64,000 nucleotides of DNA from Gammaproteobacteria bacterium (GTDB taxonomy: Bacteria; Pseudomonadota; Gammaproteobacteria; Pseudomonadales; Azotimanducaceae), in the NCBI GenBank assembly GCA_026706665.1, contig JAPOYI010000224.1, positions 1-64,000 of the forward strand. Direction: 5' to 3'. Under the pieces are notes generated by a model. That model was not told the DNA's origin. It saw only the letters and a list, made by a program, of their open reading frames with translations, and made no database searches. The position numbers were made by a program, and so were the translations under genes. Below are positions 17,742 through 34,672 of this stretch, in pieces; the first letter of the stretch is position 1, and each line of letters opens with the position of its first letter.

Positions 17742-20072
17742 GTGGACCAGCGCGGCATAGCAGGAAAGCAATTCGCCGGGCGCTTCGCCGAGCGGATACT
17801 CGCGTCCCGGTGGCGGGTCATCGTGGCTGCGGTGCTGCTGGTTGCGGCGGCGTCCGGCGGCATCGCGCGGCTCGAATTCGCCGCCGACTACCGCATCTTT
17901 TTCGACGAACACAATCCGCAGCTCCTGGCGCTGGAAGAGCTGGAGAATACCTACGGGAAGAACGAGAACATCGCGTTCCTGGTCGTCCCGGACAACGGGG
18001 ATGCCACCTCCGAGGACGCCCTCGATGCCGTTGTCTGGCTCACGGAGGCCGCCTGGCAGACTCCGTATGTGAGGCGCGTCGACTCGCTCGCCAACTTTCA
18101 GCACACCACCGCCGACGGTGACGACCTGTATGTGCAGGATCTCGTTGATCCGCTGGAACTGAGCCGGGCCGAGGCGCGCGAGCGTATCCGCGGCATCGCC
18201 CTGTCGGACCCCCGTATCGCTGGCGTCATCCTGTCCCTCGCCGGCGACGTCACGGTCGTGAACGTCACGATAGAAATGCCGCAGGAGGACCTCCTCGCGG
18301 CCGTGAAGGAAGTTGCCGTATTCGCCAGGTCGATCGGGACCGAGGCCGAAGAGACCTTCCCCGGAATCGACATTCGCGTCGTCGGCACGGTCATGGTCAA
18401 CCAGACGTTCGTGGAAGCCTCGATGGACAGCCAGATGGTGTTCCTGCCGGCAAGCCTCGTGCTCATGGCGCTGATCCTCGGCGTCCTTACCCGGGGCTGG
18501 GCGGGGGTCGTGGCGACCGGACTGGTGATCGTCTTTTCCATTTTCGCGTCCATGGGTCTGGGCAGTTGGGTCGGCCTCCCGTTTTCCCCGCCCATTTCAC
18601 CGGCGCCGACCATTGTGCTGATGATCGTCGTGGCGAACTGCGTGCACGTGCTGGTGGCCGTGCAGCAGCGTTTGCGTGCAGGGGATTCGCGTCAGGACGC
18701 GATCGTTGAAGCCATCAGGCTCAACCTGCACCCTGTGTTCCTGGCGAGCCTCACCACGGCGCTCGGATTCCTCAGCATGAACTTTTCCGAAGTGCCGCCC
18801 TACCGTCACCTCGGCAACTTCGTCGCGTTCGGTATCGGTGCGTCCTTCCTGCTCTCGGTGACGTTTCTTCCGGCCCTGCTTTCGCTCCTCCCGATCCGGG
18901 CCGCAAAGGAGCGGCGGCTTCGGGGACCTTCCATGCGGCTGCTGGCGGACACTGCGCTACGCCACAGAAAAGTGCTGTTCTGGGGATGGGTAGTGGTCGT
19001 CCCCGCCATGGTCTTAGCCATTCCGCGCAACGACCTCAACGATGTCCTGGTGCACTTCTTCGACGAGAGCGTCGAGTTTCGGCAGGACACGGACTTCATG
19101 GACGAACACCTGAGCGGGAATACCCTGCTCGAATATTCGCTGCACGCTGCTGTCGAGGGTGGCGCCACCGATCCCGAATTCCTCACCGAGGTCTCGAACT
19201 TCGCCGACTGGTACCGTGAACAGCCACCGGTACGCCATGTGGCGGTGATCACCGACACCTTCAGGCAGCTCAACCAGAGCATGCACGGCGATGACCCCGA
19301 CGCCTACCGGATTCCGGAGACCCAGGAACTCGCCGCGCAGTACCTGTTGCTCTACGAACTCTCGCTTCCGCAGGGTCTGGACGTGAACAATCAGATCGAC
19401 AGGTCGCGGTCGGCCACGCGCGTATCGGTGTCGACAGAGACGCTTTATTCCCGGAATCTGCTTGAACTCAATGCGCGTGCCCAGGCCTGGCTCGACGAGA
19501 ATGCGCCGTACGTGGGCGAGGTCAACAGCACGGGCCCCTCAGTCCTCTTTGCCTACATCGGGCAGCGCAATATCCGCGCCATGCTGATCGGCACGCTGGT
19601 CGTGCTGGTGGCCATTTCCGCTATTCTCCTCTTCGCCCTGCGATCGCTGCGGCTGGGCCTGATAAGCATCGTGCCCAACCTGATTCCGGCCGTGCTCGGC
19701 TTTGGCGTCTGGGGCCTGGCGGTCGGACAGGTGGGAATCTTCCTGTCCGTGGTGGTGGCCATGACGGTGGGCATCGTCGTTGACGATACGGTGCATTTTC
19801 TCGCCAAGTACCGCCGCGCGCGGCGTGAGTACGGCCAGGATCCCGACGACGCGGTGCGTCATGCGTTCGACACCGCGGGCCGGGCCCTGATCACGACGAC
19901 GGTCGTGCTGGTGGCCGGATTCCTGATATTCGTGTTTTCGCCGTTCGTTCCCACCGCCCAGGTGGGCGTCCTGACCGCCATGATCATCGGCTTCGCGCTC
20001 ATTGCGGACCTGACGCTCCTTCCGGCGCTGCTGATGGGTGTGGACCGAAGTTCAGGGAGGCGTGCCGGCTGA
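17742..20072 (+). CDS. RND superfamily (MMPL/HAE3-type) transporter
   Basis: A 776-residue inner-membrane transporter. One helix near residues 22-42 is followed by a large periplasmic domain, then five or six helices, then a second repeat of the same plan (helix near 410-430, loop, helices at the C-terminus), giving the RND duplication. GTG 17742 gives a sensible N-terminus; no ATG lies near and the open frame upstream is not protein-like. Members of this group usually work with a LolA-like periplasmic protein and an outer-membrane barrel. Both partner types occur here, but 14 kb away at the other end of the RiPP cluster (33857 and 34672), so the three may form one export route. It precedes the HlyD-like gene by 70 bp. 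Confidence 0.85.
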   Translation: MDQRGIAGKQFAGRFAERILASRWRVIVAAVLLVAAASGGIARLEFAADYRIFFDEHNPQLLALEELENTYGKNENIAFLVVPDNGDATSEDALDAVVWLTEAAWQTPYVRRVDSLANFQHTTADGDDLYVQDLVDPLELSRAEARERIRGIALSDPRIAGVILSLAGDVTVVNVTIEMPQEDLLAAVKEVAVFARSIGTEAEETFPGIDIRVVGTVMVNQTFVEASMDSQMVFLPASLVLMALILGVLTRGWAGVVATGLVIVFSIFASMGLGSWVGLPFSPPISPAPTIVLMIVVANCVHVLVAVQQRLRAGDSRQDAIVEAIRLNLHPVFLASLTTALGFLSMNFSEVPPYRHLGNFVAFGIGASFLLSVTFLPALLSLLPIRAAKERRLRGPSMRLLADTALRHRKVLFWGWVVVVPAMVLAIPRNDLNDVLVHFFDESVEFRQDTDFMDEHLSGNTLLEYSLHAAVEGGATDPEFLTEVSNFADWYREQPPVRHVAVITDTFRQLNQSMHGDDPDAYRIPETQELAAQYLLLYELSLPQGLDVNNQIDRSRSATRVSVSTETLYSRNLLELNARAQAWLDENAPYVGEVNSTGPSVLFAYIGQRNIRAMLIGTLVVLVAISAILLFALRSLRLGLISIVPNLIPAVLGFGVWGLAVGQVGIFLSVVVAMTVGIVVDDTVHFLAKYRRARREYGQDPDDAVRHAFDTAGRALITTTVVLVAGFLIFVFSPFVPTAQVGVLTAMIIGFALIADLTLLPALLMGVDRSSGRRAG

Positions 20073-20142
20073 AGCGGCGACCGCATGGCGGTGCGGCGCA
20101 AGCACCGGGCCCGTACGAGTTTGCATATACTTGTTTCGTCTC

Positions 20143-20682
20143 ATGAAGGCGCCTGCACCCACGGTCGTGTTCAATAATCCATTCGACTCATTCCACAATA
20201 CGGTTGCGGAAGCAAAGGAAGAGCGCGAACAACTCGACCGTTTGCTGACAATCTCCACACCGCGGGAGCGTCTGCTCGTTGTCGGCATCGCCCTCCTTCT
20301 GTGCATTGCGGCGGCGTGGCTCTTCTTCGGCAGCGTAGTCCGTACCGTTACCCTGGACGGTGTGCTTGTGGCACCCGGCGAGGGCACGGCGTCCATTGCG
20401 GCCTTCGTCTGGATCGAGAGCGGCGTCGCGCCGGAGATCGAGGTCGGCATGCCCGCGGGGATCGAGCTGTCCGGGGCGGATGGCTCGCTTGACGGTGAAG
20501 TCGCGAAAGTCGCGGCTTTACCCGTACCCGACCGGGTGGCGGCGTTGGCGCCGGTGTTCCCGCACCGAATCGATATCGGGCTCGAAGAAGATGTTCTTTT
20601 CCCTGCAGGTCTGGAATGCCGGATCGTGATTGAACTCGGCAGGCAGGCTCCGGTCGCGCTGTTTGGAATGAGGCGGCAATAG
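20143..20682 (+). CDS. NHLM-type bacteriocin secretion protein (short HlyD-like adaptor)
   Basis: A 179-residue protein with ATG 20143. The segment EEREQLDRLLTISTPRERLL followed by a single membrane helix (about residues 45-66) is the signature of the HlyD-like member of nitrile-hydratase-leader-microcin export systems. A short periplasmic domain follows, far shorter than a full membrane fusion protein with coiled coil. It would link the two NHLM ABC proteins downstream to the periplasmic side. Its stop is one base before the next start (20684), so it is translated with them. Confidence 0.75.
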   Translation: MKAPAPTVVFNNPFDSFHNTVAEAKEEREQLDRLLTISTPRERLLVVGIALLLCIAAAWLFFGSVVRTVTLDGVLVAPGEGTASIAAFVWIESGVAPEIEVGMPAGIELSGADGSLDGEVAKVAALPVPDRVAALAPVFPHRIDIGLEEDVLFPAGLECRIVIELGRQAPVALFGMRRQ

Positions 20683-20683
20683 C

Positions 20684-22885
20684 ATGGCGGCGCGCGCCGC
20701 GAGCGCCCGAAATAGCGACCGGGCCGCATCGCGGAGGGTAACGACGCCGGTCCTGTTGCAGATGCACGCGACCGAATGCGGTGCCGCCTGTCTCGGTAGC
20801 GTACTGGGTCACTTCGGGCGGTGGGTGCCGCTCACCGAATTGCGCGAGAAGTGCGAGGTGAGCCGGGACGGCAGCAGCGCCGCGAGCATCGTGCGTGCCG
20901 CCAGGCACTACGGTCTCGAATCCAGGGGCTTAAGCGTTCGCGCCGAGGCCCTGAAAAAGCTGCAGTTGCCGCTGATCGTGTTCTGGCAATTCAGCCATTT
21001 CCTGGTCGTCGAAGGAGTCGATGACCGCTACTTCTATCTCAATGACCCGGCCACGGGCCGCCGCAGGCTCTCCGCGGAAGAGTTCGACAAGGGCTACAGC
21101 GGAATTGTGCTCCGGTTCGAGCGCGGTCCCGATTTCGAGACCGGTGGCGAGCGGCCCGGCCTGTTCGAGCAATTGGGTACCTTGCTGGCCGGATCATGGA
21201 ACGTGCTTGCCGGGACTATTGCCTGTGGACTCATGCTGACGCTGCTGGCGCTCATCGTGCCCGTGTCTCTCGGTTTTTTCGTCGACAGCGTGCTGAATAG
21301 CCATGGGCCGTGGGGCGGAGTGGTGGCTGCCCTGATCGGCGGCGGCATCCTGGTGTATGCCCTGTCCCTGCTGAAGCACAGGTTCCTGCAACGGCTCGCG
21401 GTCAGGATCTCCGTGATCGGCTACAACCGGGGCCTGTCAAGGCTGCTGCGGTTGCCGGTGGAGTTTTTTGACCACAGGCTGGTCGGCGACGTGACTGACA
21501 GGGTTTCGTCCATCGACCGGGTCGCGAAGAACCTGACCGAGCAGTTCCTCGTCCTCCTCATCGACATGGCAATGAGCACCGTGTTGCTCGTCGCGATGTT
21601 GGCCTGCGACATCGCGCTCGGGCTCATCGTGGTCTTGCTGGGGCTCCTGCACGCCTTGCTGGCCCGCTTCGTGGGTGCGCGCCGGGCTGTTCGAATCGAA
21701 GCGATGCGGCGCGAACAGGGTTTGCTCATCGGGGTCGGCATGCAGATGTTGAGCCATGCGGAAAACCTGCGCATGACGGGATCGGACGACCGTTTCTTTT
21801 CCCGCTGGAGCGGCCAGCAGGCGCGCGAACTGCATGCGCGCCAGCTCTGTTCCGAACTCGGCCAGGTCGATACCGCGCTTCCGGGGCTGATTGCCGCACT
21901 TCGCAGCGCGGCGATCCTTGGTGTTGGGGCATTCATGGTCATGGCCGGGGGAATGACTCTGGGAACGCTGGTCGGCGTCTACATCCTGGCGGAGATGTTC
22001 CTGGCGCCCGTGGGGCGTTTCCTGGAGTTCGCCGAAAAGCGCCAGGCGCTGGAAACCGATTTGCAGCGGCTGGAAGATATCTCGAAGACCGCTCCCGACC
22101 CCGTTTTCGGCCGGCGGAGCCCGGAATCGGCATCGATCCCGACGTTCAACGGCCGGCTCCAGCTTGCCGGCCAGCTTGAACTCAAGGACGTCACCTTCGG
22201 CTTCAACAGGAGCCGGCCACCGCTGCTGAAGGACTTCAACCTCGTGCTTAAGCCCGGGCAGCGGCTGGCCGTGGTCGGTCCCAGCGGTTCCGGCAAGTCG
22301 ACCCTGGCGCGTCTCGTTGCGGGGATCTATCGGCCCTGGTCGGGCGAGATCCTGTTCGATGGCCACCCGAGGGACGAGATTCCCGAGGAAGTGCTGCGGC
22401 GTTCCATCTCCATGGTGGACCAGGACGTGGTGCTGTTCTCGGCCTCCGTTCGGGACAACATCACGCTTTGGAATCCCGCTGTTCCGGACGAAGCCATCGT
22501 CGCGGCGACGAGAGACGCCTGCATCCACGACGAAATCCTGGTCAGGCCCCACGGATACGCGACCGCGGTCGAGGAGGGCGGAGTGAACTTCAGCGGCGGC
22601 CAGCGGCAACGGCTGGAGATCGCCCGCGCGCTGGTGGGCCATCCGACCGTGCTCATTCTGGACGAGGCCACCAGCGCCCTGGATGCCGCCACCGAGGAAT
22701 TTGTCGACGATGCCCTGCGGCGCCGCGGCGTTACCTGCCTGATCGTGGCGCACAGGCTCAGCACGGTGCGGGACTGCGACGAGATCATCGTGCTGGACAA
22801 GGGCGTGGAAGTGCAGCGCGGCGCGCACGACGAGTTGATCGCAGACCGTGATGGCACGTACTACAAGCTGGTGAGGTCTGGCTGA
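20684..22885 (+). CDS. NHLM peptide exporter: C39 peptidase / permease / ATPase ABC transporter
   Basis: A 733-residue ABC exporter. Residues 20-140 are a C39 peptidase: catalytic Cys in ATECGAACLGS, His in FWQFSHFLVVEG and Asp in YLNDPATG. Six membrane helices follow at about 160-430. The nucleotide-binding domain has Walker A GPSGSGKST (about residue 531), signature NFSGGQRQR and Walker B VLILDEATSALD. C39 transporters cut the leader after a Gly-Gly or Gly-Ala-like site and export the core, here presumably the LCCCW peptide of the precursor at 33349-33600. It fits the family of NHLM peptidase/permease/ATPase proteins. It overlaps the start of the second ABC gene by one base (TGATG). Confidence 0.92.
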   Translation: MAARAASARNSDRAASRRVTTPVLLQMHATECGAACLGSVLGHFGRWVPLTELREKCEVSRDGSSAASIVRAARHYGLESRGLSVRAEALKKLQLPLIVFWQFSHFLVVEGVDDRYFYLNDPATGRRRLSAEEFDKGYSGIVLRFERGPDFETGGERPGLFEQLGTLLAGSWNVLAGTIACGLMLTLLALIVPVSLGFFVDSVLNSHGPWGGVVAALIGGGILVYALSLLKHRFLQRLAVRISVIGYNRGLSRLLRLPVEFFDHRLVGDVTDRVSSIDRVAKNLTEQFLVLLIDMAMSTVLLVAMLACDIALGLIVVLLGLLHALLARFVGARRAVRIEAMRREQGLLIGVGMQMLSHAENLRMTGSDDRFFSRWSGQQARELHARQLCSELGQVDTALPGLIAALRSAAILGVGAFMVMAGGMTLGTLVGVYILAEMFLAPVGRFLEFAEKRQALETDLQRLEDISKTAPDPVFGRRSPESASIPTFNGRLQLAGQLELKDVTFGFNRSRPPLLKDFNLVLKPGQRLAVVGPSGSGKSTLARLVAGIYRPWSGEILFDGHPRDEIPEEVLRRSISMVDQDVVLFSASVRDNITLWNPAVPDEAIVAATRDACIHDEILVRPHGYATAVEEGGVNFSGGQRQRLEIARALVGHPTVLILDEATSALDAATEEFVDDALRRRGVTCLIVAHRLSTVRDCDEIIVLDKGVEVQRGAHDELIADRDGTYYKLVRSG

Positions 22886-25827
22886 TGCGCGACGCGGCGT
22901 CGGAGTTCACATCACTGGCCGAACTCGCTGCTCGCTCCGGCACATCGGTGCCCTGCGCGGGCAACCTGCCGGTGAGTCTCGACGACGCGGAGAGTGTCTG
23001 GTTCATCGACCAGGGCACCGTGGACCTGTTCCTGGTCGAATTCAGGGACGGTGTGGAGCAGGCGGCCCCGCAGCATCTGCTGCGCCGGGAATCGGGCATG
23101 TTTCTGCCGGGTGTCGCGCCGGATGAACGGGACCCGGCCAAAGGCAAGGACACGACCCTCAGCCTGGTCGCCAAGGGGTTGCCCGGTACGCTTCTGAAAC
23201 GCCTGCCGGCGTCCAGCATGTCCGACGTCGACCCGGCGGAGCTGGCGTCACAGACCGACACCTGGCTTACCGCCATGACGGACACGCTTTCCCGGTTCGT
23301 CGACCATCTTCCGCGCGCCACGGCGCTGGCCGAGCCGGGTCTGACCCAGAACCTGGCGCCCTGCACGCTATCTGTCCGGCGCGGGGTGGTGTGGGTATCC
23401 AGGCCGCCGCCCGGTGCGGTCCTTTTCATGGACGTGGTTGACGAAACGGAACTTGCCGAGGCGGGCGGTCCGCCCGAAGCGGTCGTGCCGTTGACGCGGT
23501 CGAGTTGGCTTACCCTGTTCGACGAGGCGACCCTGGCGGGCACGTCGTCCGAGACACTGGCCCGGCGGGGCATCCTGTTGCCGGCGGTCGCTTCCTTTCA
23601 CGCGATCGCTTTCGCGCTCGAACGGCTGAACCGCCGGCTTGCGGTGGTCGACGATGCGAATCTGGAACGCGAGCGGACCGCCAGCCGGCGCACCGCCGAA
23701 GAAGCCGCGCGGCAGCGGCTGTTCAACATCTACGACCTGCCGGTTGGCCGGGATGCCAGTGTCGAGGACACGTCCCTGGCGGATGCCCTGGAGATGATCG
23801 GCCGTCACGAAGGAATAGATTTCAGGATTCCGGCTCGCTCGGGGTCTTCCGATGCTCCGGGCCTCGTCGACATTCTTGACGCGTCAGGTGTACGCGCCCG
23901 GCGCGTGCGGTTCAGGGCCGAGGGAGACTGGTGGCGCGGCGACAGCAACGCGATGCTGGGATTCCGCGCCGAAGACGGCCAGCCGGTTGCGCTGCTGCCG
24001 GGCGCATTCGGGCGTTACCGGGAGGTCGATCCGGTCACCAGGCGCCGTGTCCGGGTTTCGGCGCAGCGCGCCGGCGCGCTCGCGCGGGAAGCCTGGATGT
24101 TCTATCGGCCATTGCCGCCGGGGCAAGCCGAGCCCGCCGACCTGCTGAGAATCGCCATGCATGGATCGGCGGCAGACCTGGGGCGGCTCGTGGTTGCCGG
24201 GCTTCCGGGAGGCCTGGTCAAGCTGCTCCCGGCGCTGGCGCTAGGATTCGTCGCGAATCACGTGGTGACAGGCGGTAGTGCCGGAGCGCTCTATGCGGTG
24301 GCCATGGCGCTGGCGGGGTTCGGCCTGCTTGGCGCGCTGCTGCACCTCTTTCAGGGGACGGCGATGATGCGCCTCGAGGGGCGCGCGTCACGAGTCGAAG
24401 CCGCTTTCTGGGATCGCCTAATGCGCCTTCCGCCAAGCATTCTGCACCGCCATCCCGCCGGCGACCTGGCCATGTCGGGAATGACGTTCCAGAATCTTCG
24501 CGACGGCCTGCAGGGCGTGATTGCCGATAGCGTGCTCGCGATCATCTTCCTGCTTCCCGTTTTCGGCCTCATCTTCTTCTACGACACCACGCTCGGCGTC
24601 ATCGCCCTCGCTTTCAGCGTGGCTTCGATCCTGGTCACGGTAGTCCTCGGGTTGCGCCAGCTACCCCCTTGCGGGCGGATGCTCGGCGCGGCGCGCCGCG
24701 TTGCCGGCCGCCTGTTTCAGATCGTCGGCGGTATCGCCAAGCTGCGCGTGGAGAACGCGGAAGGGTCGGCTTTCGCCATGTGGGCGCGGGACTATCGCGA
24801 GCAGAAGCGGGCGGAACTCGAACTGGGCGGCCTCGAGGGACACTCGCGGGCATTCGGCGCCGCGCTTCCCTTTCTTGCCGGCGGAGTGCTGCTGCTGGCC
24901 GTGGTAACGGTGGGCGACCGCAGCGTCCCGGTCGGCGACTTTCTCGTCGTCTACATCGTCTTCATCACGTTCCAGACCGCGATCGCCCGGCTTGGCGACT
25001 CATTCGGCACGATCGCAGCCATGCTGCCGGCGTTCGATCAGATGCGCCCGCTGCTCGCGGCCGTGCCTGAAACCGAAATCGAGGGTGAGCCGGTTGAACG
25101 CCTCGGGGGCGAAGTCCTTTTCGACCACGTTTCCTTTCGCTACGACCCCGACGGACCGTTGATTCTCGACGACGTCACGATTCGGGCGCGTCCCGGCGAG
25201 TTCGTCGCGATCGCCGGCGAGTCCGGTGCGGGCAAGAGCACCCTGTTCCGTCTCGCGCTTGGAATCGACCGGCCATCCGCAGGTGCGGTGTACTACGACG
25301 GACGTGATCTGAGGCACCTGAACCTGAAGCAGGTGAGACGGAAAATAGGCGCGGTGCCGCAGTCGGTGCGGCTGCATCCCCAGGATCTCTGGGACAACAT
25401 CGTCGCGCACCACGAGGGCACCACGACCGACGAAGTTTGGGAAACGGTCCGCGCCGCCGGCATCGAAAGCGAAGTCAAGGCCATGCCCATGGGCTTGATG
25501 ACGATGGTCGGGGCCAGCGGAGCGGTGCTTTCGGGCGGCGAGGGCCAGCGCGTCACCATCGCCCGCTCGCTGATGGGCAGCCCGCGCATCATGCTGCTCG
25601 ACGAGGCGACCAACTGGCTCGACAACGAGAGCCAGGCCGAGGTCATGCAGAACCTCGCCCTGCTGACCTCGACCCGGATCGTCATCGCCCATCGCCTTTC
25701 CACGCTGGAACAGGCTGACCGCATCTACGTGATGCAGGCCGGAAGGGTCGTGCAGCGCGGCTCCTTCATGGAACTCATGGAGGAGGACGGCGTGTTCAGG
25801 GAACTGGTCAGAAGGCAGGTCGCCTGA
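22885..25827 (+). CDS. NHLM bacteriocin system ABC transporter, permease/ATP-binding (second subunit)
   Basis: A 980-residue protein. The first 400 residues are a soluble regulatory part typical of NHLM ABC2 proteins, including the EEAARQRLFNIYDLP-like segment and the Trp-rich GDWWRGDSNAMLGF region, with no C39 motif. A six-helix permease follows at about 430-690 and an ATPase with Walker A GESGAGKST (about residue 777), signature LSGGEGQRVTIARS and Walker B IMLLDEATNWLDN. The Asn after the Walker Glu/Ala segment is slightly unusual. It is expected to dimerise with the upstream C39 exporter. Start ATG 22885 overlaps the previous stop, and the next gene begins 15 bp after its end. Confidence 0.9.
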   Translation: MRDAASEFTSLAELAARSGTSVPCAGNLPVSLDDAESVWFIDQGTVDLFLVEFRDGVEQAAPQHLLRRESGMFLPGVAPDERDPAKGKDTTLSLVAKGLPGTLLKRLPASSMSDVDPAELASQTDTWLTAMTDTLSRFVDHLPRATALAEPGLTQNLAPCTLSVRRGVVWVSRPPPGAVLFMDVVDETELAEAGGPPEAVVPLTRSSWLTLFDEATLAGTSSETLARRGILLPAVASFHAIAFALERLNRRLAVVDDANLERERTASRRTAEEAARQRLFNIYDLPVGRDASVEDTSLADALEMIGRHEGIDFRIPARSGSSDAPGLVDILDASGVRARRVRFRAEGDWWRGDSNAMLGFRAEDGQPVALLPGAFGRYREVDPVTRRRVRVSAQRAGALAREAWMFYRPLPPGQAEPADLLRIAMHGSAADLGRLVVAGLPGGLVKLLPALALGFVANHVVTGGSAGALYAVAMALAGFGLLGALLHLFQGTAMMRLEGRASRVEAAFWDRLMRLPPSILHRHPAGDLAMSGMTFQNLRDGLQGVIADSVLAIIFLLPVFGLIFFYDTTLGVIALAFSVASILVTVVLGLRQLPPCGRMLGAARRVAGRLFQIVGGIAKLRVENAEGSAFAMWARDYREQKRAELELGGLEGHSRAFGAALPFLAGGVLLLAVVTVGDRSVPVGDFLVVYIVFITFQTAIARLGDSFGTIAAMLPAFDQMRPLLAAVPETEIEGEPVERLGGEVLFDHVSFRYDPDGPLILDDVTIRARPGEFVAIAGESGAGKSTLFRLALGIDRPSAGAVYYDGRDLRHLNLKQVRRKIGAVPQSVRLHPQDLWDNIVAHHEGTTTDEVWETVRAAGIESEVKAMPMGLMTMVGASGAVLSGGEGQRVTIARSLMGSPRIMLLDEATNWLDNESQAEVMQNLALLTSTRIVIAHRLSTLEQADRIYVMQAGRVVQRGSFMELMEEDGVFRELVRRQVA

Positions 25828-25841
25828 GTCGGCCGAAATCG

Positions 25842-27143
25842 ATGAGAGATCCCATCGACGCGACAAGGCGTCTCCTCTCAAAGGCGGGAAAAGACCTGGG
25901 ATTTCGGGCGCGCCTGCTCGCCGATCCGAAAGCCGTGATCGAAAGGGAATTCCGCGTCACGCTGCCCGAAGGCCACGAGATTCACGTCCACGAAAACACC
26001 CATGCCGCGACGCATCTCGTGCTCCCGCCCCTGGATGGACGCAGCGAGGAGGAGCGGGAGGCGGCGAGGACCGGTGCGGCCTCACTCGAATTCCTGAAAA
26101 AGACGATGTACGACCCCGCGCCCCCGATGCGTCCCGCCGCAACGCGCCCGGAAAGTGCGCGGGTGCGCGCCGCTTCGCGACAGGCGCTTGCCAGGGCGGC
26201 AAGGGAGAGCATTCGCCGCGGTCTCGGCTTCCTGGAGTCCGCCATCGACGGGGACGGGGCCTGGCACTGCATCCGGTTCAATACCGCCGACCCCGACATT
26301 CCGCGGCATTTCGAGAGACCTGCCTTTGTCTCCGCGCTCTGCGTGCTCGCGCTCGAGAATTGCCGCGAGGCGCGGGCGAAAGCCATCTGCGCCGCCACCC
26401 GGTCATATATCGCCGATACCATGGAATACCCGGGGTTCTGGCGCTATTACCGGCACCTGCCGCAGGATCTCGACAGTACGGCGCTGTGTTCGCTCGTGCT
26501 TGGATCCCACCCCTGGATCCTGCTCGGCAGGAACGTTCCCCGGATACTGGCCAATCGGGACGAGGAAGGCCGGTTCATGACCTGGGTGCTGGCCGAAGAC
26601 GAGCCCGACGTGGTGTCGACGTTTCGTATCGAGGCCGACCCGGTCGTCAATGCCAACGTCATCGGCTACCTTGGCGACCATCCTGAAACCGGGGATGCCA
26701 GGGCGTGGCTGGAGTCCCTGGTTACCGAAGGGAGCCTCGAGGGCTCATCCAAGTGGTATCCCGACGTGGTCGCGATCTACTATGGCATCGCCCGTGCCAT
26801 GGTCCGGACGCAGCCCACCCTCGATCGACTGCGCCCGGTACTCGCCGATCGTATTCTCGCCCTGCGCGACGAGCAGGGCGAGTTCGGCAACGTCCTCCAG
26901 ACCGCGCAGGCGGTATCGGCGCTCTTCAATGTCGGCCGACTTGACCGGATCGACGCCAGGCGCGAAGTGGACAGGCTCCTCGGCGAGCAGCGCGAAGACG
27001 GTAGCTGGCCGGAGTTGCTCGCCTTTGGCGATGCGTCGCTGAAGTGGGGCGCGGTCGGGCAGATAGGACATGGCTCCGAATCCGTAACCTCCGCGTTTTG
27101 TATCGAGGCCCTGGAGCGCCTCACCGAGGCCTTGGGGGCGTGA
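25842..27143 (+). CDS. NHLP-leader-like domain fused to terpene cyclase/prenyltransferase-type alpha-toroid protein
   Basis: A 433-residue protein in two parts. Residues 1-80 look like the proteusin leader itself: FRARLLADPKAVIEREF, then EIHVHENTHAATHLVLPPLD and an acidic EEEREAARTG, in the same order as the precursor at 33349-33600. Residues 120-430 form an alpha/alpha-barrel of squalene-cyclase/prenyltransferase type: repeats GDGAWHCIRF, PQDLDSTALCSLVL, REDGSWPELLAFG and HGSESVTSAFCIEALERL (G-D/E-G-x-W and D-x-x-S motifs). The LDST pattern only partly matches a class II cyclase DxDD. It sits between the exporter genes and the hydroxylase gene, same strand. Function is unknown; modification or chaperoning of the precursor is possible. 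Confidence 0.75.
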   Translation: MRDPIDATRRLLSKAGKDLGFRARLLADPKAVIEREFRVTLPEGHEIHVHENTHAATHLVLPPLDGRSEEEREAARTGAASLEFLKKTMYDPAPPMRPAATRPESARVRAASRQALARAARESIRRGLGFLESAIDGDGAWHCIRFNTADPDIPRHFERPAFVSALCVLALENCREARAKAICAATRSYIADTMEYPGFWRYYRHLPQDLDSTALCSLVLGSHPWILLGRNVPRILANRDEEGRFMTWVLAEDEPDVVSTFRIEADPVVNANVIGYLGDHPETGDARAWLESLVTEGSLEGSSKWYPDVVAIYYGIARAMVRTQPTLDRLRPVLADRILALRDEQGEFGNVLQTAQAVSALFNVGRLDRIDARREVDRLLGEQREDGSWPELLAFGDASLKWGAVGQIGHGSESVTSAFCIEALERLTEALGA

Positions 27144-27202: not shown

Positions 27203-29602
27203 GTGGCTGGCATGCCGCAGGATACCGCCGCAACTGGTGGCCCAGACAGGGCCGATATCGCGCCGCCTGTCGAGCCGTCGATCAAGAACGCTCTTCCGCA
27301 TTATTTGCCGCTGGGGATCTTTCCGCTGATTTTTCTCGCCCTGGTCCATGGCGGCTGGTGGCTTCTGCCGGCGTTTCTCTTCATGAGCGTCGCCGCGCAG
27401 CTCGACAAGGCTCTGGGCCCAGATGGGCGCAACATGCCGTTGGGGACGCCGGAGCGCCGCCTGCGCTGGCACAACCTGCCGGTCTGGTCGTGGGCGTTCC
27501 TTTGGCCGCCGACCCTCATCCTTGGCATGTGGCAGGTCCTTGTCGCAGACCCCTTCGCCATCTGGGAAGAAGTCGTCCTCGTGATCTTGCTGACCATGGA
27601 AGCGCAGGCGGTATTCGTGGTGGGTCACGAACTGATTCACCGGCGCTCTACCTGGGAAAGACGAATCGGCGAATTCCTGCTTTCTTCGGCGTCCTATCCG
27701 CAATACGCGACGGAACACCTGTACATCCACCATGCCAAGGTCGGCACACCGGATGACGCGGGATCCGCGCCCAAGGGGGAGAGTTTCTGGCGGTATTTCC
27801 CCAAGGAAGTCGCGAGCAACCTCACCAATTCCTGGAAGGCTTCCGGCGAACGCCTGGCGCGGCGCCGCCTGCCCGTGTGGCACTACAGCAATCCGTTCTG
27901 GCGCTACGGCCTGAGCCTCGTGTTCTGGTATGGACTGGTGTTCTGGATGGGCGGCATCTGGGCGGTGCCGGCGTTCATTTTCCTGGGCCTCTCCTGCGTC
28001 TTTTCGATGAAGATCAGCAACTACTTTCAGCACTACGGCCTGCGCCGGGTCCGACTGCCGAACGGCCGCTGGGAAAAGGTGCAGCCGCGCCATTCCTGGA
28101 ACGCCGACTGGAAGTTCAGCAACTGGATGTTCTTCAACATGCAGAGGCATGCCGACCATCATGCGATGGCGACCCGCCACTATCCCCTGCTGCAGATCGG
28201 CAGCGCCGACGAGTCGCCGCAGTTGCCGGGAACGTACGGCGACATGATGAATCTCGTCCTGCGGCCGAAACGCTGGTTCGAGAAGATGGACCCGCTGGTG
28301 GATCAGTGGCGCAGCCACTTCTATCCGGAGATCGATGACTGGAGCGCCTACGACAGCCCCATCACCGCGTCTCGACCGGACGCCTTCGAGGCGATAGTCG
28401 AGATCTTCGGCGCCGCCCCGAGGCTCGCGGGATGGATCGAACGCAACCCGGAACTGCTCGACAACCTGCAGGATCGGGAGTTCACGGATATCGACCTGCC
28501 GAAAGGGTTCGGGCCGGACCAGGAATACGAGGCGATCGCCCGGCGCGGGCTGGCACGACTCTACTGGACGATGGAGATGGGCGTGCAGGAAATGCGGGAC
28601 CTGGTCGCCGATTTGCCAGCGGCGGATGCGAAGGACACCGCTGAAGTCGTACGGAACTGGTCGAACGACAAGGCGTTCCAGATCGGGATGCATGTCGTGC
28701 GCGGAAACCTGTCGCTGGCGGAGGCCAGGGTTGCACTCTCCAATCTCGCCGAAGCATCGATTTCGACGGTGCTTTCCGCGGTGGTCGCCGATTTCGTCGA
28801 CCGGGCGGGGCCGTTGCACGGAGGCGTCGTTGCTGTGGCGCTGGGCGACCTTGCCAGCCGGGAGGTGTATCCGGGGGTGGCGATCGACATGCTGTTCGTG
28901 CATGACGGCGGGGAGTCGGGCGGGATATGTCAGCGTTTCGGGGAGATTCTGACGGATTTTGCGCAGGACAGCCTGTTGTTCTCCGCGGCGAAGCGTAAGG
29001 CAGGCTCGAACGTACTTGCCGGGGTCCCGCTCTCGGGGCTGGCCGGGCATTGCGGCAGCTCCGCCTCCGGTGAAGTTCCCGTCCTTACGCGGGCGCGCTG
29101 CGTATTCGAATGCGGCGATGCCGGAATCGGCCGCCGCTTCGACGAAGCTCGGCGCGAAGTCCTCGCTGGATGCGGCGCGGACGCGTCCCTGGTCGACCGG
29201 CTGCGCGGCTCAGGGGAAGGCCCCGCGGCAACGGACGTGTCCACGTATGCCGTTGCGCGCGGTGGGCTCGACGATGTCGAGACGATCGCGCGACTCCTGC
29301 AGTTGACGGATGCCGCGGATGCCGCGGCCAGCCTTGACGATCCGGCCCCGACGGCGGCGGCGGTTTTCGACGCCGCGGGTGCCGAGCCACTGGCGCAAGC
29401 CGCGGCCATGTGGCGTGACTTGCAGGGCATCCAGCGCCTCATCGGCGAACAAGGATTCGACACGGGCGCGGCAGGGGCGAAGGTCAGGTCCCTGGTTGCG
29501 AGCGCCTGTGGGCATGAGGACTTCGATGGGCTCGAATTGGCGATCGCCGAGACCGCATCCCGGGCGGCCGCCGAGATCGATGCGCTTGTTTCGCGCGCAT
29601 GA
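27203..29602 (+). CDS. AlkB-type membrane hydroxylase fused to a degenerate GlnE-like nucleotidyltransferase domain
   Basis: A 799-residue fusion. The N-terminal 390 residues have several membrane helices and the three His boxes of membrane di-iron hydroxylases: HELIHRR (about 141), HLYIHHAK (about 172) and QRHADHH (about 313), with the alkane monooxygenase arrangement. From about residue 470 the sequence follows glutamine-synthetase adenylyltransferase: FQIGMHVVRGNLSLAEARV, then LSNLAEASISTVL and VVAVALGDLASREVYPGVAI, and later LTRARCVFECGDAGIG. In GlnE the GSDxDL motif holds the metal-binding Asps; here it reads GVAIDML, so one Asp is lost and adenylylation is doubtful. Start GTG 27203, or ATG 27212. 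It could hydroxylate a lipid or the peptide; the role of the tail is unknown. Confidence 0.8.
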   Translation: MAGMPQDTAATGGPDRADIAPPVEPSIKNALPHYLPLGIFPLIFLALVHGGWWLLPAFLFMSVAAQLDKALGPDGRNMPLGTPERRLRWHNLPVWSWAFLWPPTLILGMWQVLVADPFAIWEEVVLVILLTMEAQAVFVVGHELIHRRSTWERRIGEFLLSSASYPQYATEHLYIHHAKVGTPDDAGSAPKGESFWRYFPKEVASNLTNSWKASGERLARRRLPVWHYSNPFWRYGLSLVFWYGLVFWMGGIWAVPAFIFLGLSCVFSMKISNYFQHYGLRRVRLPNGRWEKVQPRHSWNADWKFSNWMFFNMQRHADHHAMATRHYPLLQIGSADESPQLPGTYGDMMNLVLRPKRWFEKMDPLVDQWRSHFYPEIDDWSAYDSPITASRPDAFEAIVEIFGAAPRLAGWIERNPELLDNLQDREFTDIDLPKGFGPDQEYEAIARRGLARLYWTMEMGVQEMRDLVADLPAADAKDTAEVVRNWSNDKAFQIGMHVVRGNLSLAEARVALSNLAEASISTVLSAVVADFVDRAGPLHGGVVAVALGDLASREVYPGVAIDMLFVHDGGESGGICQRFGEILTDFAQDSLLFSAAKRKAGSNVLAGVPLSGLAGHCGSSASGEVPVLTRARCVFECGDAGIGRRFDEARREVLAGCGADASLVDRLRGSGEGPAATDVSTYAVARGGLDDVETIARLLQLTDAADAAASLDDPAPTAAAVFDAAGAEPLAQAAAMWRDLQGIQRLIGEQGFDTGAAGAKVRSLVASACGHEDFDGLELAIAETASRAAAEIDALVSRA

Positions 29603-29654: not shown

Positions 29655-29738
29655 GCCCTCAGCCGGGGGATCTTCCCCGATCGCTGATGCGTAGGGACGT
29701 GCCGGCATTTCCCCCGCCGTCGGAGGCGTACTTCCATG
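29655..29738 (+). repeat. Dispersed ~84-bp repeat, copy B
   Basis: Begins GCCCTCAGCCGGGGGATCTT and ends GGAGGCGTACTTCCATG. Directly followed after three bases by copy C in the same orientation, forming a tandem pair in the 133-bp gap before the YcaO gene. Internal hairpin CGGGGGATCTTCCCCG and palindrome TGCCGGCA are present. The last ATG (29736-29738) is the first in-frame ATG of the YcaO frame. Confidence 0.85.
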
Positions 29739-32126
29739 AGAGCCTTCAGCCGGGGGGCATTCCCCCGACCGCTAATGCGTAGGGACGTGCCGGCATTTCC
29801 CCCGTCGTCGGAGGCGTACTCCCATGAAAGTACGCGGCGCGGCATCCTGACCAGGACCGACCCTGCCGACAGCGGTCCAGTCGAACTCCCCGCGCTCACC
29901 CCGCATCTCGTGTTTCGCGCGATCGGAGAACAGCAGGCGCTCCTGGTCTCGGATTCGTTCAATACGCTGCTGCACGGCGAGTTGACCTGCGATCTCCTGC
30001 CGCTGCTGGACGGCCGGCGCTCCCTGGGCGGGATTGCCGCCGCGCTTGACGGCCGCCACGCCGCCGCCGATGTGCGGGCAGCGGTGGCGTCGCTCTCTTC
30101 CAGGGGTTATGTCGTATCCGGGAAGCACGGCATGGACCGGAGCCGGGCGGCCTACTGGTCATCGCTCGGCGCTTCGCCACGCTGGGCGGAGCGGCGCCTG
30201 GCGGAATCGAGCATCTCGGTCACGAGCGACGGCGACCGCCTGGTCCGGCACCTGGAACGGTCCGGGATCACCGTGGGACCGGACAATCCGAACCTCGCCG
30301 TGATCGTCTGCGGCGACTATCTCGAAGTGCGCCTGGCGGAAGTGAATCGGCGCCAGCTTGACTCCAACGCGCCGTGGATGCTGGTGCGACCGGGCGGCAT
30401 CGAGCCGCTGTTCGGTCCCGTCTTTCGGGGGGACGAGGAGTCCCCTTGCTGGGACTGCCTGGCATACCGCCTGCGCAGCCACCAGGAAGTTCACAACTTC
30501 CTGCGTAACCTTGCCGGCGAGAAGGGCGCCTTCAAGCCGTTTGCGGCGGACCCGGCGGTGCTCGACGCGTTGTGCGGACTGATTGCCGCGGAGATCGCCA
30601 AGTGGCTGGTGCTGGAAGAGATTGCGCCCGTTCACGAACACGCGATCGCGATGCATCTCGGCACGCTTGCAAGTTCCCGGCATCGGGTGGTGCGCCGGCC
30701 GCAATGCGCGGTGTGCGGCGACGAGGCGCTATACCGTCCGGATCGCCCGCCGGCCGCCCTGCGTCTCGAGTCCAGTCCCAAGTCCGTCAGCAACAGCGGT
30801 GGCACCCGCACCGTGGCCCCGGAAGTCACGCTGGCGAACTACCGCCACCTCGTAAGCCCCGTCAGTGGGGTCGTGACCTGGCTCAGGCGCACCACCGACG
30901 AGACCGATTCCTGGCTGCATGTCTACTGGGCCGGAAGCAATCTCGGGATGCGAAGCCGAACATTAAGTTCGCTGAGGAGGAGTCTCCGCAGCAAGAGCGC
31001 CGGCAAGGGCAGCACGCGCGATCAGTCCAAGGTCAGCGCGCTCTGCGAAGCGGTCGAGCGCTACTCGGGCGCCTTCCACGGGGACGAGATCCGAAGGCTG
31101 AAGCGATTCGCCGAGTTCGCCGGCGCAGAAGACGCGATCCATCCCAACGACGTGCAGCTTTTCAGCGACTGCCAGCTCGACAATGCCGAGAGCATCAACG
31201 CGAAAGGCCACCCCTACAATGTCGTCCCGCCACGGCTCGACCCGGACGCGGAAATCGGCTGGACACCGGTATGGTCGCTGACCGGGGAGATGCACCGCTA
31301 CCTGCCGACCTCGATGCTCTACAGCATGGCGCCGGAACAGCGCGCGCCTTACGACCTGATCGCCGATTCCAACGGCTGCGCCGCCGGCAATACCCTGGAA
31401 GAGGCGATCCTGCAGGGCTTTTACGAACTGGCCGAGCGCGACGCGTTCGCGATCTGGTGGTACAACCGACTGCGGGTGCCCGCGGTCGATCTTTCGAGCT
31501 TCGACGACCAGTACCTCGCAGCGGCGGCGGAGCAGTACGCCGTGTATGAACGGGAGGTGTGGATGCTGGACGTCACCGCCGACATCGGGATTCCCGCCTT
31601 CGTCGCGCTCTCGCGCAGGCCGGCCGCAGAAACCGAGGACATCATTTACGGTGCCGGCGCCCATGCCGACCCGCGTATCGCGGCCCTGAGGGCGCTTTGT
31701 GAACTGAACCAGTGCCTCACCTGGTTGCCGCGTCCAGGGAGCGGCGACGGCCGGCCCATGATCGATGATCCGCTGGCGCTCAAGTGGTGGAGGACCGCCC
31801 GACTCGCCGACTGTGACTGGCTGGCGCCCAAGGCGGACGCCGCCCTGCGCGAGGCTTCGAGTCATCCGTTCGTCGAATCGGCGGATACGCGCGACGACAT
31901 CGAGTATTGCCGCTCGCTTGTCGAAGCGCAGGGCCTCGAGTTCCTGGTTCTGGACCAGACCCGGCCCGACGTCGGCATGCCCGTCGTGCGGGTCATCGTG
32001 CCGGGCATGCGCCACTTCTGGGCCAGGTTCGCGCCCGGGCGCCTGTACGATGTGCCAGTCAGCATGGGCCACCGCGAGCAGCCCCTCGCTGAAGCCGAAC
32101 TGAACCCTGCGCCCGTCATCGCGTGA
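29736..32126 (+). CDS. Fused E1-like/YcaO cyclodehydratase (TOMM azoline-forming enzyme)
   Basis: A protein of up to 796 residues. The first half is an E1-like (ocin-ThiF type) domain that binds the leader, with the zinc tetrathiolate pairs SPCWDCLAYR (about residue 237) and QCAVCGDEAL (about 323). The second half is a YcaO domain: STRDQSKVSALCEAVERYSG, then DSNGCAAGNTLEEAILQGFY with the ATP/Mg-binding Glu and Gln, ending in a Pro-containing LNPAPVIA tail, as typical. It converts Cys, Ser or Thr to azolines with ATP, here likely the three Cys of the LCCCW core. The N-terminal 30 residues come from repeat copy C; no other good start is present before the domain, so ATG 29736 or 29778 is used. 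It is followed after 9 bp by the next gene. Confidence 0.9.
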   Translation: MRAFSRGAFPRPLMRRDVPAFPPSSEAYSHESTRRGILTRTDPADSGPVELPALTPHLVFRAIGEQQALLVSDSFNTLLHGELTCDLLPLLDGRRSLGGIAAALDGRHAAADVRAAVASLSSRGYVVSGKHGMDRSRAAYWSSLGASPRWAERRLAESSISVTSDGDRLVRHLERSGITVGPDNPNLAVIVCGDYLEVRLAEVNRRQLDSNAPWMLVRPGGIEPLFGPVFRGDEESPCWDCLAYRLRSHQEVHNFLRNLAGEKGAFKPFAADPAVLDALCGLIAAEIAKWLVLEEIAPVHEHAIAMHLGTLASSRHRVVRRPQCAVCGDEALYRPDRPPAALRLESSPKSVSNSGGTRTVAPEVTLANYRHLVSPVSGVVTWLRRTTDETDSWLHVYWAGSNLGMRSRTLSSLRRSLRSKSAGKGSTRDQSKVSALCEAVERYSGAFHGDEIRRLKRFAEFAGAEDAIHPNDVQLFSDCQLDNAESINAKGHPYNVVPPRLDPDAEIGWTPVWSLTGEMHRYLPTSMLYSMAPEQRAPYDLIADSNGCAAGNTLEEAILQGFYELAERDAFAIWWYNRLRVPAVDLSSFDDQYLAAAAEQYAVYEREVWMLDVTADIGIPAFVALSRRPAAETEDIIYGAGAHADPRIAALRALCELNQCLTWLPRPGSGDGRPMIDDPLALKWWRTARLADCDWLAPKADAALREASSHPFVESADTRDDIEYCRSLVEAQGLEFLVLDQTRPDVGMPVVRVIVPGMRHFWARFAPGRLYDVPVSMGHREQPLAEAELNPAPVIA
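29742..29826 (+). repeat. Dispersed ~84-bp repeat, copy C (read through by the YcaO frame)
   Basis: Begins GCCTTCAGCCGGGGGGCATT and ends GGAGGCGTACTCCCATG; by eye it agrees with copy B at about nine bases in ten. Its whole length is stop-free in the reading frame of the cyclodehydratase gene, so it encodes that protein's N-terminus, from the start at 29736 or at the ATG inside the repeat at 29778. Confidence 0.85.
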
Positions 32127-32135
32127 GGAGGCCAT

Positions 32136-33254
32136 ATGGACATTGACCAGGCAGTCACGTTGACGCAGGACCGTCTCGCCGAAGAGGGCGGCACCATGGC
32201 CGACCTGCTCGGGCACTTTCGGAGCATGGTTTCGCCCGTCCTCGTGGGAGACCCGGAATGGGAGCGCGTCCTGCGATGCGCAGGGCAACTGCCGATCACG
32301 ATGGGCGCCCTACCGTTCGGTCTCGAACTGCCGTTGCATGAACGAAGGCCGCAGGCGGATTTCGGCGTCTCGCTCGCGAGCGGAACCAGGCCGGCGGCGT
32401 TTTTCCGGGAACATGCACGAAATGACGGAACGGACGAGACTGCCGGGGCGATCGGGCGGCTGTTCGCGGAGATGGATGAAGGGAACTCGCCCCTGCGTGC
32501 AATCGTCGGCCCGAAGTTGATGCTGGAGTACGACATCGGCTCGGCCCGGGACGGCGAGAATCCGCTTCCGGCAATGTTCCTGCGTCCGGGCGAACGGCCG
32601 ATCATCGGCGACTCTGGCCAGGAGAACGATGTTCTCACGGTGGTCGACGCGCTCGTTTCCTGCGTGGGATGGGAGCGCAGCGAGGCGGAACGGAAGAACG
32701 TCGAATGCGTCTACCTGGCGCAGCCGGAAGATACGCGCCTCGATTCGTTCGGCGTATTCCCGTCTCGCGAACGTTCCGTACGCCTCGCGATCATGGGGTT
32801 CAAGACGCCAGAGGAGCTACGGATCTACCTTGAAAACGCGGGTTGGCCAGGTCAGATTCCGGCTGTCGAATCGGTCATTGCACGCTTCAGGGGACGCGCG
32901 AACATCGTCAGGTCTGGTGTGAATCTCGACGTACGCGAAGAGGGTGTCGGTCCGACACTCGGCCTGACCCTCATGGTGAAGCAGAGATATACGAAAGACT
33001 CGCGCTATTGGCTCGACGGCCTGACGGACTGGGACCCGTTCCTGCAAGCCCTGGGCCATGAGGACATCGTCGTTGGAGAGAAGCTGGCGGCGCTCGGCGG
33101 CTGGGTATCCAAACCGACCACGCTGTTCGCAAGGTCCGGACGCTACGTGCTGCTGCGGGGCATCCACCACATCAAGCTGGTCATTTCCGGAAACCGGCTA
33201 CGACAGGCCAAGGCCTACGTGTTCCTGGTGCTCTCCGGGGCGGTTCCCGACTGA
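32136..33254 (+). CDS. Uncharacterised protein of the RiPP cluster
   Basis: A 372-residue soluble protein without a signal peptide or membrane helices. I do not recognise its family. A GGAGG (32127-32131, GAGGAGGCC) precedes ATG 32136, nine bases after the YcaO stop, so it is translated with the cyclodehydratase. Visible features: an early NxxPLHE-like segment, a run of charged residues in the middle, LTLMVKQRYTKDSRYWLDG and a basic, hydrophobic C-terminus with HHIKLVISGNRLRQAKAY. No catalytic motif stands out. It may be a partner or tailoring protein for the precursor. It ends just before the bidirectional gap to the precursor gene on the opposite strand. Confidence 0.7.
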   Translation: MDIDQAVTLTQDRLAEEGGTMADLLGHFRSMVSPVLVGDPEWERVLRCAGQLPITMGALPFGLELPLHERRPQADFGVSLASGTRPAAFFREHARNDGTDETAGAIGRLFAEMDEGNSPLRAIVGPKLMLEYDIGSARDGENPLPAMFLRPGERPIIGDSGQENDVLTVVDALVSCVGWERSEAERKNVECVYLAQPEDTRLDSFGVFPSRERSVRLAIMGFKTPEELRIYLENAGWPGQIPAVESVIARFRGRANIVRSGVNLDVREEGVGPTLGLTLMVKQRYTKDSRYWLDGLTDWDPFLQALGHEDIVVGEKLAALGGWVSKPTTLFARSGRYVLLRGIHHIKLVISGNRLRQAKAYVFLVLSGAVPD

Positions 33255-33348: not shown

Positions 33349-33600
33349 CTACCAGCAGCAGCAAAGGCCCGCAGAGATAGCTTCGAGTTGCTCCTCGGTG
33401 ATGTTCGGATCCGGCGGCAGGGCGAGATGCACTGTCTGCATGTCGCTTTCGTGAACCTGGATCGTCATCGACTCGGGAATCGTAATGCCCAATTCGGCGC
33501 TGATCGTCGTCTTGGGATCTGCAAGCAGTTGTTGCCTGAACTCGGCGTCGAGCGCGGACTTCTCGACAATCTGCTGCAGCATTTCGTCGCCACTTCTCAT
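33349..33600 (-). CDS. Proteusin-type RiPP precursor peptide (NHLP leader, core ending LCCCW)
   Basis: An 83-residue precursor. ATG 33600 has a strong ribosome site (GGAGGAAT, 7 bases upstream). Leader: MRSGDEMLQQIVEKSALDAE, FRQQLLADPKTTISAELGI, then TIQVHESDMQTVHLALPPDP, the nitrile-hydratase-alpha-like leader typical of NHLP (TIGR03793-type) precursors. The end reads EEQLEAISAGLCCCW then stop: after a possible Ala-Gly cleavage site only five residues remain, three Cys and a C-terminal Trp. The Cys are targets for the YcaO cyclodehydratase (29736-32126), and the Trp for the halogenase (35932-37251). Gene lies opposite to all the others of the cluster, with its own terminator, so it can be expressed at a higher level. 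Confidence 0.93.
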   Translation of the reverse strand: MRSGDEMLQQIVEKSALDAEFRQQLLADPKTTISAELGITIPESMTIQVHESDMQTVHLALPPDPNITEEQLEAISAGLCCCW

Positions 33601-33629: not shown

Positions 33630-33856
33630 CAATCAAATGCATTCGAGACGTTACGCTACGTTGTCGCAGCGCACAAGGCACCGCAAGCAATTCAAATGAG
33701 CCGATTTAGTTTTCCTAATGGATGAACTTGCGGTTTCTTTTGCCGTGACGGGTCGTCCGGGAAGCACGGTACAATGCAACAAGTCCATCCACGGGACCGG
33801 TGCGGATGTTCCCCAACCACGAGACCATTGAAGAATGGTTTATCGGCCAGGGCTGG

Positions 33857-34672
33857 ATGAAGGACTTCGCATCCCGCTGGCGCGCTTCGTTCAAGGTTCT
33901 GGCACTGGCGAGCCTCTGCCTGCCCGGCATACATGCGCTTGCCCAGGAAGAAACGCCCGAAGACAAGGGACTGAGGATCGCGCGGGAGTCAAGCGCCCGC
34001 AATGAGGGATTCGGGGACCACACCGCTGGTATGACGATGGTGCTCCGCGACCGGCAAGGCCGCGAGAGCGTCCGCCAGATGCGCTTCAAGGTGCTGGAGG
34101 TGGAGGGGGACGGGGACAAGAGCCTGTTCGTGTTCGACCAGCCACGAGACGTGCAGGGAACCGCGCTCCTGACCCACGCGCACGTCAACACCCAGAACGA
34201 CCAGTGGCTGTACCTGCCGGCGCTGAAAAGGGTGAAACGCATCAGCGCTTCGAGGCGTTCGGGCGCCTTCATGGGTAGCGAGTTTTCCTACGAGGACATG
34301 AGCTCTCCAGAGGTGGACGAATACACCTACAGGTATCTTCGCGACGAACCCTGCGGGGAACTCACCTGCACGGTGATCGAGCAATTTCCGCTCGACGAGA
34401 AGTCCGGATACAGCCGCAAGGTCATCTGGCAGGACACCGGCGAGCTCCGAACCTGGAAGATGGAGCTTTACGACCGCAGGGGCTCGCATCTCAAGACGCT
34501 CACTTTTGCGGACTACCGGCAATACCTGGATCAATACTGGCGGGCAGGCGAACAGACGATGGTGAATCACCTGACCGGCGCGAGCACGGTGCTCGAATGG
34601 ACCGACTTCCGGTTCCGCACCGATCTCGATGAAGGCGAATTCACCCAGACCGCGCTTCGCCGGGTGCGCTGA
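33857..34672 (+). CDS. LolA-like outer membrane lipoprotein-sorting family protein
   Basis: A 271-residue exported protein. From ATG 33857 there is a standard signal peptide (basic start, core KVLALASLCLPGIHALAQ). The mature part contains QRHTAGMTMVLRD-like and QWLYLPALKRVKRISASRRSGAFMGSEF, followed by SYEDMSSPEVDEY, which is the hallmark of the LolA-like family usually encoded with MMPL/HAE3-type RND pumps and an outer-membrane barrel. It is thought to carry lipidic cargo across the periplasm. An upstream GTG 33800 or ATG 33806 would add about 17 residues. TACAAT (33770-33775) is a possible -10. It overlaps the barrel gene start (TGATG). Confidence 0.82.
   Translation: MKDFASRWRASFKVLALASLCLPGIHALAQEETPEDKGLRIARESSARNEGFGDHTAGMTMVLRDRQGRESVRQMRFKVLEVEGDGDKSLFVFDQPRDVQGTALLTHAHVNTQNDQWLYLPALKRVKRISASRRSGAFMGSEFSYEDMSSPEVDEYTYRYLRDEPCGELTCTVIEQFPLDEKSGYSRKVIWQDTGELRTWKMELYDRRGSHLKTLTFADYRQYLDQYWRAGEQTMVNHLTGASTVLEWTDFRFRTDLDEGEFTQTALRRVR

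Follow-up and report, generated by a model that had tools for sequence, protein, structure and literature searches.

The window analysed here is a stretch of 64,000 nucleotides from a Gammaproteobacteria bacterium (contig JAPOYI010000224.1), and the gene under study, at 25842-27143 on the forward strand, encodes a protein of 433 residues in which a domain resembling the NHLP (nitrile hydratase leader peptide) leader of proteusin precursors is followed by a predicted class II terpene-cyclase barrel. Judged from its precursor core LCCCW, which is identical to that of SrpE, the locus is an srp proteusin cluster. The favoured explanation, for which we put the chances as evenly balanced, is that the fusion protein cyclises a prenyl chain placed on the Trp of the LCCCW core by a predicted neighbouring prenyltransferase (32136-33254), with its built-in leader acting in cis. 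The wider proposal, of a natural leader-fused tailoring enzyme in the form of a class II cyclase with a captured cis leader, and of an srp product that would be a brominated, thiazoline-bearing meroterpenoid peptide, is offered more tentatively.

The fused gene and its leader-like domain

The layout of the fused gene is as follows.

25842..27143, +, fused gene, NHLP leader-like domain plus class II terpene-cyclase-like barrel, 433 aa
25842..26075, +, NHLP leader-like domain, residues 1-78 (family models, MprE7 match, dN/dS)
26076..26132, +, conserved segment at the core position, residues 79-97 (dN/dS 0.16)
26133..26183, +, variable linker, residues 98-114 (dN/dS 0.78)
26184..27140, +, alpha/alpha barrel resembling the single beta domain of class II terpene cyclases, residues 115-433
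26466..26480, +, D209-L-D211-S-T, aligned to the DLDTT catalytic motif of drimenol synthase (D209 and D211 in 81/81)
26757..26759, +, Tyr306, aligned to the catalytic Tyr427 of the drimenol synthase AsDMS (81/81)

The 433 codons are open throughout, with zero internal stops. Leader and barrel residues share one frame in 81 of 81 fusions (the window and all 80 fetched loci), and 25842-27143 is therefore one gene and not two genes joined by annotation; the leader is full-length in 80 of the 81, that of L038 being truncated by the contig end. The original prediction, that one gene joins a leader-like domain with a squalene-cyclase-type barrel, is thus borne out by family matches and by the frame, and the fusion, sought in other genomes, proved widespread (80 loci plus the window). 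A protein search, in which the 8000 candidates sharing most words were scored with a homologue threshold of E ≤ 0.001, gave 1061 homologues; the best 120 of these (query included) span 99-100 % of the query, and those other than the query are 73-91 % identical to it. A genome scan returned 163 relatives, from which 80 loci were kept, in metagenome-assembled genomes (MAGs) titled Gamma-, Alpha- and Deltaproteobacteria, Acidobacteria, Nitrospira, Gemmatimonadetes, Latescibacterota, Opitutales and others.

The fused leader evolves under purifying selection. Ratios of nonsynonymous to synonymous substitution rates (dN/dS), taken from the 211 of 3240 pairs with 80-99 % identity, were 0.31 for residues 5-63, 0.34 for 64-78, 0.16 for 79-97, 0.78 for the linker and 0.22 for the barrel, and the order of the five segments was unchanged when all pairs were used. 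Segment 79-97, the lowest of the five, holds invariant Ser81 and Thr88 and neither Cys nor Trp in 81/81. After Gly78, where a short core would be expected of a proteusin precursor peptide, 355 residues remain. A literal fused substrate-enzyme, as had once been suggested, is consequently unlikely: there is no core, and the segment in its place is the most conserved of the protein and free of Cys and Trp.

Family models place the N-terminal domain among NHLP leaders. TIGR03793 (NHLP leader) matches residues 7-65 (E 1.2e-11, 44.2 bits, below the curated cut-off of 50.9), NHase_alpha matches residues 17-64 (E 3.7e-5, 23.6 bits, below the Pfam cut-off of 27.2), and the solved NHLP precursor MprE7 (8tb1) matches residues 10-79 (E 1.7e-8). 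The whole fusion recovered the window's own precursor as the sole other match in the genome (E 4.7e-12, 35 % identity), in an alignment that extends past the precursor's stop. The fusion was modelled with AlphaFold2 from a 20-row alignment; helices were placed at 7-17, 19-27, 29-37 and 69-77 and no strands in 38-66, with block values of the predicted local distance difference test (pLDDT) of 30-82 over residues 1-80. This helix pattern matches that of the NHLP precursor structure as given in passages of PMC10858898. Of the leader fold expected earlier for residues 1-80, the model thus shows the four helices, at middling confidence, and no beta hairpin.

Gly78, aligned to the final residue of the SrpE leader (-1), is invariant in 81/81. 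Position -2 is Thr in 63/81. The L(X)4L motif at -12/-7 is absent: -7 (Arg72, in the place of the second Leu) is Arg in 80/81 and Gln in one, and -12 is Leu in 35, Phe in 33, Tyr in 8 and Arg in 5. All of the 65 precursors counted in the window and fetched loci keep (I/L/M)X4(L/M) at these positions and AG ahead of the core. Hairpin His50 occurs in 80/81 fusions and His58 in 81/81; by eye, both are common to the fusion, SrpE-type and cyclase-cluster precursors and are not found in MprE7. Where MprE7 contacts the YcaO enzyme through helix 1, the fusion and SrpE have different residues, by a mapping from alignments. On average the fused leaders are 34 % identical to the main SrpE copies, 35 % to the second copies and 31 % to MprE7; the figures are 32 % for nitrile hydratases and 37-41 % for precursors from clusters that hold leaderless cyclases.

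The predicted cyclase and its predicted prenyltransferase partner

Residues 115-433 are predicted to be a class II, protonation-started terpene cyclase. SQHop_cyclase_C matches residues 352-392 (E 1e-5, 25.2 bits, below the Pfam cut-off of 26.1), and the modelled barrel is nearest in fold to the class II cyclases drimenol synthase (AsDMS) and MstE. With the full-length query drimenol synthase was matched at E 8.6e-6; when residues 113-433 were searched alone no drimenol synthase match was returned, only squalene-hopene cyclase (best E 2.2e-4). By alignment a catalytic D-x-D and an activating Tyr are present, the motif being DLDST and not DxDD, and most diphosphate-binding positions of AsDMS are replaced, as would be expected if the substrate, like that of MstE, had no diphosphate. 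The original prediction had the barrel type right; its chemistry, and the partner encoded at 32136-33254, were left unnamed there.

That partner is predicted to fold as an ABBA aromatic prenyltransferase. Neither Pfam nor, at E 10, a PDB sequence search gave a match, and no sequence kinship to a known ABBA member was found. The gene was present in all 44 loci with full flanks, and its profile matched 29 of the 30 genomes searched. Prenyltransferase and cyclase are separate open reading frames in the window and in the fetched loci holding both. A predicted cyclase fold with invariant D-x-D and Tyr, together with so constant a prenyltransferase partner, makes a Trp-borne prenyl chain the most likely thing for the fusion to cyclise, and we infer prenylated Trp as the substrate. 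In the proposed scheme SrpC would form thiazolines and SrpI would brominate Trp (both activities are published), the 32136-33254 protein would put a C10-C20 prenyl group on Trp, and the fusion would protonate and cyclise the chain by means of D211 and Y306. Its leader would occupy the cyclase's own leader site and keep the enzyme active, and the active cyclase would then handle a core carried on a foreign leader (SrpE) or a freed core.

The barrel profile was also run on the complete genomes behind the 80 loci (78 distinct genomes). Five more distant cyclases were found in four genomes (200-223 bits vs 595-667), and a fragment from a fifth genome resembled the fusion type more closely (58 % identity). 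None of the five distant cyclases has an NHLP domain, there being 7 to 68 residues ahead of the barrel, and all five have a separate NHLP precursor on the contig; D211 and Y306 are kept in 5/5 and D209 in 4/5. Four of them adjoin a distant prenyltransferase, NHLM transporters and an NHLP precursor ending in Trp or Tyr (cores AVPTSGGW, AVPTGDW, FAPGGDSW and IAPTDDSY), and beside the fifth (L118) the precursor ends in GGCWSYG and no prenyltransferase match lies nearby. The window's YcaO and halogenase had no match in the DNA fetched for these five clusters, that is, four whole contigs of 13.6 to 32.5 kb and one (L129) of 13.5 kb minus its first 3 kb. From these leaderless relatives in other NHLP clusters, prenyltransferase and cyclase belong together as a unit of such clusters, to which the srp cyclase adds a leader. 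Mutually similar proteins (by eye) of ~310-360 aa stand beside leaderless cyclase clusters at L115:9491-11409, L117:64-1140 and L129:7060-7989; L115:10486-11409 and L129:7060-7989 were scanned and gave no Pfam match.

Role of the leader and competing explanations

Cis action of the leader is the weakest part of the favoured explanation and is suggested by analogy. Passages of PMC5141572 and PMC13003496 describe engineered leader-joined enzymes as constitutively active with limited efficiency; a cis leader is favoured because such enzymes are active and because a cyclase accustomed to a different kind of leader would depend on it when the core is borne by SrpE. The main rival is docking: the leader domain might bind a leader-reading srp enzyme, either the prenyltransferase or the YcaO by its leader-binding region, and so keep the cyclase at the site where SrpE is processed. 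The cluster, like 41 of the 44 fused loci with full flanks, contains a YcaO that has such a region, and no YcaO match turned up among the DNA retrieved for the five leaderless clusters; as the split between fused and unfused forms is probably a single evolutionary event, this association is confounded, and the leaderless clusters lie on short contigs. Passages of PMC12455567 report that NHLP leaders contact YcaO through helix 1 besides L(X)4L, those of PMC12715784 a model of the prenyltransferase MppC holding the folded part of its leader, and those of PMC10286304 that recombinant SrpC modified SrpE only in part, so that a partner could be missing. His50 and His58 of the hairpin are shared by the fusion and SrpE, whereas the mapped helix-1 contacts differ, and a bound fusion would compete with SrpE. 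According to the portions covered of PMC12455567 and PMC10858898, SrpI requires L(X)4L, as does the YcaO MprC, which was inactive once both motif Leu were changed to Ala, and the LahT protease reads it; in the fusions the -7 Leu is replaced by Arg in all but one. The earlier idea of a tether to leader-reading machinery is weakened by that Arg and by the 34 % identity to SrpE leaders, a value near those to other NHLPs; the folded part of the domain could still provide contacts, but we consider docking doubtful.

The same residues bear on a reading of the domain as an export signal, in which the C39/NHLM transporter would cut after Gly78 and export the cyclase, so that cyclisation would occur outside the cytoplasm. 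The Gly at -1 never varies, the transporter genes lie directly upstream, and the spacing from LPP to Gly is 13 residues in 65/65 precursors and 48 of the 53 fusions parsed (the count took in about 50-53 of the 81). The mostly Thr -2 position contrasts with AG in every precursor, however, the Arg at -7 departs from the L(X)4L that C39 domains as well as LahT read (in the passages available), and a mere cut site would leave the strong conservation of the next 19 residues unexplained; this reading is very improbable. It is also unlikely, though less so, that the domain is a leftover or structural extension, from an old precursor gene that ran into the cyclase gene, and aids folding or solubility only. 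The five relatives without a leader domain speak for that reading, whereas the dN/dS of the leader (0.31, against 0.78 in the linker) and the several positions invariant across many phyla speak against it.

Several observations weigh against cyclisation of a Trp-borne chain with a cis leader, the explanation we favour. The barrel is 17-20 % identical to AsDMS, and the AlphaFold2 model is middling (pLDDT 73, predicted template modelling score 0.74); 197-207, 253-260 and 397-406 are among its weak stretches. Seven precursors beside prenyltransferase paralogues, with no cyclase in the fetched DNA, have non-aromatic ends (GGECIC, VCQC, LCACM, RCCC, SAGCM, WCCCGN and one longer core), a weak comparison in that L122 (WCCCGN, already among the 65) and L120 share a contig with an srp fusion, ~5 and 21 kb away. 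Six second precursors near srp fusions also lack a C-terminal Trp, and for both reasons the prenyl group may be accepted by a residue other than Trp. According to passages of PMC10286304, indole C6 was brominated with neither the cyclase nor the prenyltransferase gene. No cyclase, terpene or prenyl group is ascribed to srp in the main texts PMC10858898 and PMC10286304, where the sole 'prenyl' belongs to the title of a reference, the supplementary figures and the 2021 description of the cluster being outside the search, and the review PMC12615548 mentions neither prenyl nor terpene. That the cyclase needs any leader at all is itself an assumption. In the leader trees identical leaders were merged (175 to 169). 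FastTree gave the fused leaders as one clade (79/79) and grouped them with the precursors of the leaderless-cyclase clusters and L121 (support 0.864). In a careful tree, which took 55 of 181 leaders, they were not one clade (they formed one in 4 % of bootstraps), because the nitrile hydratase outgroup joins among them. Constraining this tree to the cyclase-cluster precursors raised the likelihood slightly (P value of the approximately unbiased test, p-AU, 0.53-0.59), by which the grouping is neither shown nor rejected; constraint to SrpE was 15 log units worse (p-AU 0.11) and was not rejected.

The srp cluster and comparison with known systems

The srp cluster of marine-sponge bacteria was reportedly described by Nguyen et al. 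2021. The LCCCW core, the YcaO and the Trp halogenase are all found in the window, and passages of PMC10858898 and PMC10286304 give LCCCW as the SrpE core of srp. The genes around the fusion are listed below; fractions refer to the 44 loci with full flanks.

17163-20072, MMPL transporter (relative in 22/44)
20038..20682, +, HlyD-like secretion protein
20684..22885, +, NHLM ABC transporter with C39 peptidase
22885..25827, +, NHLM ABC transporter, second subunit
27203..29602, +, fatty-acid-desaturase domain and GlnE-like domain in one frame (relative in 35/44)
29736..32126, +, YcaO cyclodehydratase, SrpC type, leader-binding region TIGR03882 (residues 212-380)
32136..33254, +, predicted ABBA-fold aromatic prenyltransferase, 372 aa (no Pfam match)
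33349..33600, -, NHLP precursor, SrpE type, core LCCCW
33800-34672, LolA-like protein (relative in 14/44)
34672-35901, DUF1302 protein (relative in 13/44)
35932..37251, +, tryptophan halogenase, SrpI type

The published srp cluster has the same NHLP precursor with an LCCCW core, the YcaO and the Trp halogenase, and an NHLM transporter is present here in the window. Its main texts name neither a prenyltransferase nor a cyclase, whereas both are predicted here (the supplementary cluster figure and the 2021 description were outside the search). NctPC and ChrPC (PMC13290415) combine a prenyltransferase and a cyclase (MstE-like in NctPC) that act on peptide Trp, as is proposed here; they carry both activities on one chain, whereas two genes are involved here and the cyclase bears a leader-like domain. 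The predicted fold is like that of the drimenol synthase AsDMS and the merosterolic acid synthase MstE, and the DxD and Tyr are shared with AsDMS; AsDMS also contains a HAD domain, and most positions of its diphosphate pocket differ in the fusion. LctCE and HalCE2, described in passages of PMC5141572, likewise have leader and tailoring enzyme on one chain; these are man-made, whereas the fusion occurs in nature and combines a structured NHLP leader with a predicted terpene-cyclase-type barrel. The mpp cluster is, in the passages covered of PMC11791876 and PMC12715784, a ribosomally synthesized and post-translationally modified peptide cluster with halogenase, prenyltransferase and terpene synthase, as here; it differs in its Nif11-type leader and lanthipeptide product, and no fusion is described in those passages. 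PalX/PalQ (PMC10853753) offers an NHLP precursor with a prenylated C-terminal Trp, as proposed for SrpE, whereas PalQ is of the isoprenoid-synthase kind and not ABBA, and the three-gene pal cluster has no cyclase gene.

No description of a natural leader-fused cyclase was found in the literature searched, the primary srp description lying outside it, and a leader joined to a tailoring enzyme was otherwise found there only in engineered enzymes. The proposed chemistry would be a new member beside NctPC and ChrPC. The srp cluster occurs widely in sponge microbiomes, and the texts covered give no structure for its final product; a prenyltransferase-cyclase pair predicts a terpene-bearing peptide and guides which mass shifts to seek. 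If the proposal is true, the fusion and its unfused relatives are a natural counterpart of the joining of leaders to enzymes by engineers. The fusion lets activation or placement of a tailoring enzyme by a structured leader be tested directly, and it may bear on the poor working of recombinant SrpC.

The 65 precursor cores are LCCCW in 59 cases, MCCCGI in four and WCCCG followed by Asn or Gln in two. The second NHLP precursors near srp clusters, in L050, L056, L063, L068, L073 and L074, have the cores MCCCGI, WCCCGN and WCCCGQ. An NHLP cluster at L119:1-18001 holds two distant prenyltransferase copies and three precursors (GGECIC, VCQC and LCACM), with no cyclase match in the fetched DNA, and perhaps prenylates Cys. 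The single frame at 27203-29602 joins a desaturase to a GlnE-like adenylyltransferase domain, and the MMPL, LolA-like and DUF1302 genes could export a lipid-like product. Leaders of the SrpE main copies are 84 % identical on average, and the LCCCW core is constant in all 59 main copies, from MAGs of many phyla, which is unusual for a secreted peptide.
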